Origin: Candidatus Bathyarchaeota archaeon
Lineage (GTDB): Archaea > Thermoproteota > Bathyarchaeia > Bathyarchaeales > DTEX01
Reading direction: 5' to 3'
Assembly: GCA_018396655.1 (NCBI GenBank)
Contig: JAGTQF010000007.1
Span: 1 to 50,564 of the forward strand
DNA: 50,564 nucleotides
Shown: positions 31,303 through 32,175 of the stretch, piece after piece
Numbering within the stretch: the first letter of the stretch is position 1
How the letters are laid out: the number at the start of each line of letters is the position of its first letter
Made by a program: the position numbers and the translations under genes
The notes under the pieces: generated by a model
Databases searched by the model: none
Told to the model about the DNA's origin: nothing
The model's input: only the letters and a program-made list of their open reading frames with translations

Positions 31303-31956
31303 TCACCACTCACAGATTTCATGCATCTTCTCCAGATAAGTATTTGGGTCCGTCTCTTTAACAACCCCCTTATCCACATCAATTATATATATGGCGTGAA
31401 GTCTCGCGTTTCTTATCTCCTCGATACTCACTGGAGGATTACTATAATATAGGTCGCATAGAGATTTTATCTCCCTTATTTCACTGGTTGTCCTATATCG
31501 TGGCGGCTTCGCTAATGCTGGTGGAAACCACAAAGTATAATATGGTGGGGTTGCTAGAGCAAACTTCTCTGCATAGCCGCTGTATCGGGTTATTTTACTC
31601 GTCACCCTAGCCTTACAATATGTTATTGGGTCAACCGCGTGCTCCGGTGGAACATAGCCGGTTTCAACCTCAACGATTAGGCTGCCTAAACCTTTCAGGG
31701 CATATATGTCGCATGATATTCCATCTAGGGCATACTCTAAGTCAACGTAATATCCGCTCAAAATAAGGTATTTAGCGCACACGAGCTCCATAATGGAATG
31801 ATTTATTTTAACGGCGTTTCTCCTATAAAGAAGAATGAGCTTATCCCTTAACCTAAAAATCTGCTGACAAAACCTCTCACTCTCACCACTACAAAGCCTA
31901 TTAACGATTAGATTCAAATCTTCCTCAAACCGCTCAGCAGCCTTCTCCAACACCAT
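31303..31956 (-). CDS. Unknown protein with possible PD-(D/E)xK-like core
   Basis: A 217-residue soluble protein not assigned to a named family. The first ~55 residues are helical. The core HSIMELVCAKYLILSGYYVDL, then DGISCDIYALKGLGSLIVEVE, has the D...ExE spacing and strand order of restriction-endonuclease-like folds, with a Glu where Lys is common. The pairing CDIY...EVETG is the main argument. It overlaps no gene and sits just upstream of the rhomboid. DNA cleavage or repair activity is a guess only. Confidence 0.6.
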   Translation of the reverse strand: MVLEKAAERFEEDLNLIVNRLCSGESERFCQQIFRLRDKLILLYRRNAVKINHSIMELVCAKYLILSGYYVDLEYALDGISCDIYALKGLGSLIVEVETGYVPPEHAVDPITYCKARVTSKITRYSGYAEKFALATPPYYTLWFPPALAKPPRYRTTSEIREIKSLCDLYYSNPPVSIEEIRNARLHAIYIIDVDKGVVKETDPNTYLEKMHEICEW

Positions 31957-32003
31957 AACCCAAAAAATATTTAACTTTTAAATTTAAAAATTTGTGCAAA
32001 AGG

Positions 32004-32017
32004 TTTTATATATAAAA
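32004..32017 (+). promoter_or_regulatory. Strong TATA box for candidate hairpin RNA
   Basis: TTTTATATATAAAA preceded by CAAAAGG, which resembles a BRE. The predicted start is about 25 bases downstream, near 32035, at the foot of the hairpin element. The box is itself palindromic and could also serve the minus-strand gene starting at 31956; the BRE-like side favours the plus strand. Confidence 0.6.
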
Positions 32018-32034
32018 TTCAAGAAAAATAGTTA

Positions 32035-32175
32035 CTGCCAAGCCGGGAAGTAGGCTTTAAGCACCGCGTTTAAGCAAAGAGCACGCCAGCCGAAACGGCT
32101 GAAGACTGGCGTGCGATAAAGACTTTGCTTAAACGGGCCGGACGGTGCTTAAGGCTTAGACCCGGCTTGGTTATC
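32035..32175 (+). ncRNA. Candidate ~137-nt long-hairpin RNA
   Basis: The sequence folds end to end. Stem 1: 32038-32047 with 32161-32170, 10 bp. Stem 2: 32052-32066 with 32143-32157, 15 bp including two G-U. Stem 3: 32068-32079 with 32123-32134, 12 bp. Stem 4: 32081-32089 with 32106-32114, 9 bp. Apex: CCG-AAA-CGG. Extra bases fall almost only on the 3' strand: 7 (32099-32105), 8 (32115-32122) and 8 (32135-32142). A strong TATA box lies 25 bases upstream and T-rich sequence follows. It matches no RNA family I know. An inverted-repeat mobile remnant is the alternative. Confidence 0.65.

Follow-up and report, generated by a model that had tools for sequence, protein, structure and literature searches.

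A hairpin at positions 32038-32170 (+) of the window, the whole stretch of 50,564 nucleotides analysed here, can almost certainly be taken as a genuine RNA gene, present once in its genome and belonging to an uncatalogued family which, judging from comparison of genome sequences within the phylum, occurs so far only in Bathyarchaeia. Its relatives define a conserved, promoter-linked element with a covarying predicted secondary structure and loop-bulge pairing. A basal stem carries one arm, or two in many relatives, and each arm comprises stems B and C with a conserved 8-nt bulge between them and an apical loop that covaries with a bulge below stem B. The RNA most probably forms the core of an RNA-protein particle. 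Bathyarchaeia rank among the most abundant archaea, and a search of the literature on structured or noncoding RNA of Bathyarchaeota/Bathyarchaeia turned up no structured RNA described as special to this class. Covariation within the family sufficed for a secondary structure with a pseudoknot and for a testable fold before any experiment, and the existence of both a stand-alone gene and leader copies offers a direct route to function.

Fold of the element and covariation in relatives

The source genome is a 1.32-Mb Bathyarchaeia MAG (G000) close to JZ_bin_14, in which the RNA has a copy number of one. On folding, window positions 32038-32170 (+) gave a near-continuous hairpin with a minimum free energy (MFE) of -80.3 kcal/mol and z of -8.8 to -9.6, a stability that none of 200 shuffles reached. 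The sequence-only reading had drawn such a hairpin with stems of 10, 15, 12 and 9 bp, and the overall shape stands: the MFE structure has a basal stem of 10-11 bp (32038-32047/32161-32170), a stem A of about 16 bp (32051-32066/32143-32158, the foot internal loop then being AAG/GA), a stem B of 13 bp (32067-32079/32123-32135) and a stem C of 11 positions (32081-32091/32104-32114). Two of the 7-8-nt bulges that it had placed on the 3' strand were retained, GGCCGGA (32136-32142) and GATAAAGA (32115-32122), whereas its apical bulge turned out to be part of a conserved 12-nt loop. An inner 4-bp helix of the MFE apical loop showed no conservation in relatives. The features of the locus are as follows.

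31303-31956, minus strand: gene of a 217-aa PD-(D/E)XK-like protein, divergent neighbour and possible partner (adjacency, co-occurrence, fold)
31991-32003, plus strand: BRE-like element and upstream sequence TTTGTGCAAAAGG, conserved in family f1; TGTGCAAAA recurs 5' of the RNA across f1 genera
32004-32017, plus strand: TATA box of the RNA gene, TTTTATATATAAAA, starting 34 nt before the stem and preceded by GCAAAAGG
32038-32047, plus strand: basal stem, 5' strand, CCAAGCCGGG, covarying with 32161-32170 over 60 loci
32048-32052, plus strand: foot internal loop, 5' side, AAGTA (RAGYA in relatives), kept in nearly all of 60 loci
32053-32066, plus strand: stem A, 5' strand, covarying helix 1
32067-32079, plus strand: stem B, 5' strand, 13 bp, covarying helix 2 (13 nt in 52/60 arms)
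32081-32091, plus strand: stem C, 5' strand, 11 positions, covarying helix (11 nt in 60/60 arms)
32092-32103, plus strand: conserved 12-nt apical loop, GAAACGGCUGAA; CGGC at 32096-32099 is the 5' side of the pseudoknot
32104-32114, plus strand: stem C, 3' strand (covariation, fixed length)
32115-32122, plus strand: 8-nt bulge GATAAAGA (GAYAAAGA), proposed hinge, strongly conserved and 8 nt in 60/60 arms
32123-32135, plus strand: stem B, 3' strand (covariation, length)
32136-32142, plus strand: proximal bulge GGCCGGA; GCCG at 32137-32140 is the 3' side of the pseudoknot and pairs with the loop
32143-32156, plus strand: stem A, 3' strand (covariation)
32157-32160, plus strand: foot internal loop, 3' side, TAGA; GGCUYAGA is conserved in nearly all loci
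32161-32170, plus strand: basal stem, 3' strand, CCCGGCTTGG, covarying; followed by T-rich sequence to 32188

Compensatory changes in relatives, on which the sequence-only reading had staked its proposal, were overwhelming in all helices. Among 28 hand-collected arms, changes on both sides were seen at 30 of 35 pairs. In an alignment of 60 model-found arms, which was fitted to the nested structure so that nested counts lean that way, 91.4% of cells pair and double-changed cells number 488 vs 143 in shuffles, while slid controls of the nested helices dropped to 31-43% pairing. The basal stem covaries around a conserved RAGYA/UYAGA internal loop across 60 loci.

Beyond the nested helices, and outside the model to which the 60 arms were fitted, the apical loop motif CRGC pairs with GCYG of the proximal 3' bulge in 96.5% of cells. 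Double changes occur at all four pairs, with loop/bulge combinations such as CGGC/GCCG, CAGC/GCUG, CAGU/ACUG, CGGU/ACCG, AGAC/GUCU and CAAC/GUUG, and slid versions pair in only 8-39% of cells. In 30 two-arm RNAs, Watson-Crick pairs between loop and bulge of the same arm number 222 of 240, vs 147 across arms; the loop matched the bulge of its own arm better in 26 of the 30 RNAs, and the reverse was found in none. The loop therefore pairs either inside its own arm or with the corresponding arm of a second molecule. While right about the hairpin, the sequence-only reading had overlooked this pseudoknot, and also the relatives with two arms, the leader-like copies and the divergently oriented neighbouring gene.

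The lengths of the arm parts are close to fixed (stem C 11 nt in 60/60, hinge 8 nt in 60/60 and stem B 13 nt in 52/60 arms, values which the fitted alignment favours), and stem C nevertheless shows an identity of only 50%. Such near-fixed lengths combined with drifting sequences would fit a rigid arm bent back at the GAYAAAGA bulge. The P4-P6 domain of group I introns resembles the proposed arm in architecture only, with a pair of helices of roughly 11-13 bp that lie next to each other around a hinge and are held together where an apical loop touches a distal internal site. In contrast to P4-P6, the Bathyarchaeia RNA would make this contact through a covarying 4-bp loop-bulge helix and bend at an 8-nt bulge on one strand, and it has neither intron nor catalytic core. 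A K-turn at the hinge or foot was rejected by eye, as the tandem G-A arrangement does not fit. The second arms of L014, L021 and L027 (genus g5) keep the loop-bulge pairing and have no GAYAAAGA hinge.

Gene status, distribution and known RNA families

Summed over all pairs, 150 G-U were counted vs 45 A-C, an excess which identifies the plus strand as the RNA. In 30 of 57 relatives the stem is preceded at 30-35 nt by the best TATA match; given the usual archaeal TATA-to-start spacing, transcription would start a few nucleotides before the stem. The promoter proposed for the window's hairpin thus has positioned counterparts in relatives. Neighbouring genes vary among loci, and at 23 of 38 loci the nearest downstream ORF of at least 80 aa runs on the other strand, so that most members of the family are not leaders. 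In the window, what follows the RNA is the 3' end of lig on the opposite strand, rather than a gene for which it could serve as a 5' leader or riboswitch. The sequence-only reading had placed the element beside lig, an association which is true of the genus and does not extend to the family, since the RNA lies elsewhere in many genomes.

A BLAST search with the hairpin found the RNA beside lig in all ten same-genus genomes, with weaker matches in other families. An arm covariance model (R1) matched at least 63 of 257 Bathyarchaeia genomes and a second (R2) at least 64 of 257, in ten families (f1, f3, f5, f6, f7, f8, f11, f15, f25 and f27); these counts are lower bounds, few candidates having been scored per genome in the large searches and some copies being cut by contig ends (G014). 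Model R2 found one copy in each same-genus genome. Among 398 genomes sampled from the phylum, the covariance model found 29 carriers, all of them inside the class Bathyarchaeia and none outside it, and a deeper scan of 30 selected genomes turned no negative into a positive. In IMG/VR, the loop-hinge pattern was present in seven contigs, none of which matched the model.

Measured over the basal stem, one-arm RNAs are about 137 nt long (136-142) and two-arm RNAs 217-239 nt. The architectures and the arm tree indicate a modular RNA in which arms are gained or lost. In that tree the first arms of f1, f6, f7 and f8 cluster apart from second arms, a hint, from short sequences and a tree with no support values, that an old duplication may have been followed by loss in the window's genus.

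The sequence-only reading had recognised no known RNA in the hairpin, and the searches agreed. With Rfam 15 at gathering scores, neither the window nor the RNA loci of ten relatives gave a match, and at E up to 10 the best hit was rli62, with 16 bits vs a cut-off of 83. RNase P RNA (RF00373) and SRP RNA (RF01857) were set aside, as the genome's own copies lie at G000:C35:165-462 and G000:C3:3303-3630. Guide RNAs of the C/D type would carry a C box RUGAUGA and a D box CUGA, those of the H/ACA type an ACA box following the hairpin; neither TGATGA nor ACA occurs in 32030-32175, and a C/D or H/ACA guide RNA was rejected. A MITE or IS end was likewise rejected, the single copy in the genome settling a point that the sequence-only reading had itself raised. 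With covariation, a positioned TATA box and no Rfam family, its suggestion of a new structured RNA is upheld.

Proposed role and rival readings

We give somewhat better than an even chance to the reading that this is a stand-alone gene whose RNA binds protein and acts in trans, and that it belongs to a new family, spread across Bathyarchaeia, with a fold-back arm. The RNA would be transcribed from its own positioned TATA box, and the 8-nt bulge would act as a hinge bending the arm back so that stem C lies alongside stem B, with the loop-bulge helix locking this arrangement. The compact arm, with its conserved unpaired purines, would then bind a protein, and the transcript, acting in trans, would form the core of a ribonucleoprotein. 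Genomes of the Bathyarchaeum group also have this module before stress-type genes, where leader copies may be captured binding sites through which the same partner could act on mRNAs in cis. The sequence-only reading had suggested a protein scaffold as one possible role, and a ribonucleoprotein core is preferred here because the RNA stands alone, its unpaired purines are fixed in a rigid frame and its arms are modular. CsrB-type and 6S-type RNAs resemble it in standing alone and in possibly having a protein-binding module in common with mRNA leaders; the Bathyarchaeia RNA differs in having no sequence relation to them, another fold and a partner that is only a candidate. Against this explanation stand the leader-like copies, which also fit a regulatory element, the three second arms that have no hinge (L014, L021 and L027), a patchy distribution (64 of 257 genomes) and a pseudoknot that could join two molecules rather than one. 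A more far-reaching version is put forward only tentatively, being well short of even: a new archaeal RNP class in which a modular RNA with a fold-back arm binds a dedicated protein, possibly the 217-aa PD-(D/E)XK-like protein, and was duplicated in some lineages and captured as a stress-gene leader.

The leader-like copies are further one-arm copies in four genomes of the Bathyarchaeum group (G032, G041, G047 and G102), at loci L177, L178, L179, L180, L181 and L212. They lie 51-75 nt 5' of start codons preceded by a GGTG-type sequence, and in most of them the TATA box is closely followed by a common promoter motif, TGCTGAGAATA. Behind them are genes for a cold-shock protein (PF00313) and a dodecin (PF07311) and two tiny ORFs, one of which is followed by a DJ-1/PfpI gene. 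These copies, together with tandem arms that recall tandem aptamers, are what speaks for a protein-, ligand- or temperature-sensing element that controls genes in cis, the stand-alone copies then being CsrB-like decoys. We regard this as rather unlikely, as the leader position was found only for Bathyarchaeum-group copies and is absent in the window's genus and most families, and since the genome of the window has a single copy, a decoy there would have no leader to compete with. The cspA 5' leader thermosensor is similar insofar as a structured leader precedes a cold-shock protein gene at L177 and L181, but the Bathyarchaeia element is also found before dodecin and tiny ORFs, and most of its copies are genes of their own. 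Bathyarchaeum tardum is described from a sustained enrichment culture (PMC10477458). As its group has both stand-alone and leader kinds, expression can be tested.

Searches of Pfam and NCBIfam with the protein of the divergent 217-aa gene found nothing, and no PDB sequence matched it significantly. Its AlphaFold model is confident (pLDDT 91.5), and Foldseek returned weak matches to XisH, SfsA and other PD-(D/E)XK proteins (best E 0.004), with which a conserved D...EVETG agrees. The gene is highly conserved, is present in 113 of 257 Bathyarchaeia genomes and is divergent from the RNA in f1, f5 (G024; G031 on contig C85) and f11. Of the 257 genomes, 59 have both RNA and gene, 6 the RNA only, 54 the gene only and 138 neither, in a table that counts 65 RNA carriers including G014, added by hand, and in which shared ancestry inflates the association. 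In f6, an apparent broken 5' half of the RNA lies upstream of the gene in G113 (L258) and G114 (L260), the latter genome having an intact two-arm copy elsewhere. The gene is likely to be the ancestral divergent neighbour of the RNA, and a partnership of the two products is possible, a lead rather than a finding.

On these grounds the PD-(D/E)XK-like protein could have the RNA as its partner or be inhibited by it, the RNA then acting like that of a type III toxin-antitoxin pair or as guide or cofactor of a nuclease. Divergent adjacency in three families, the remnants in G113 and G114, the gene's presence in 59 of 65 RNA carriers and the weak fold match point this way; the reading is nonetheless improbable, given 54 genomes with the gene and no detected RNA, unlinked loci in f6, f7, f8, f25 and f27, the inflation by shared ancestry, and a degree of conservation unlike that of typical toxins. 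A type III toxin-antitoxin as such, in which a ToxN-like toxin gene directly follows a repeat RNA and is transcribed together with it, was rejected, the neighbour being divergent, without a Pfam match and weakly PD-(D/E)XK-like. ToxI-like antitoxins share with the Bathyarchaeia RNA small pseudoknotted modules, sometimes in tandem, and a nuclease-like neighbour. They differ in that here the neighbour is divergent, often unlinked, widely conserved and PD-(D/E)XK-like rather than ToxN-like, and the units are of about 95 nt, one or two per RNA.

Just as improbable as the reading as partner or inhibitor, in our view, is loop-bulge pairing between two molecules, giving a dimer or larger RNA assembly instead of a fold-back monomer: covariation cannot separate pairing in one molecule from pairing between the same arms of two, but the fixed lengths of stem B, stem C and hinge are more easily explained by fold-back in one. 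Finally, it is very improbable that the hairpin belongs to the 3' UTR or terminator of lig on the minus strand or to a mobile element, for although it lies about 28 nt past the lig stop codon and also folds well on the opposite strand (z -9.3), the G-U asymmetry favours the plus strand, many loci lie away from lig, a terminator needs neither conserved unpaired motifs nor a pseudoknot, and the copy here is single.

In family f8, two copies (L191 and L214) are degenerate, with loop or foot lost, and look like decaying paralogues. Many f8 members are followed by a GTGGAA...TTCCACTTTTTT hairpin resembling a terminator. At f8 loci L182-L185, L188, L195, L200-L202 and L205-L207, conserved sequence lies 60-100 nt 5' of the arm, with inverted repeats such as TTTGTGACATAAATGTCACAA beside the TATA box, possibly the operator of a regulator.
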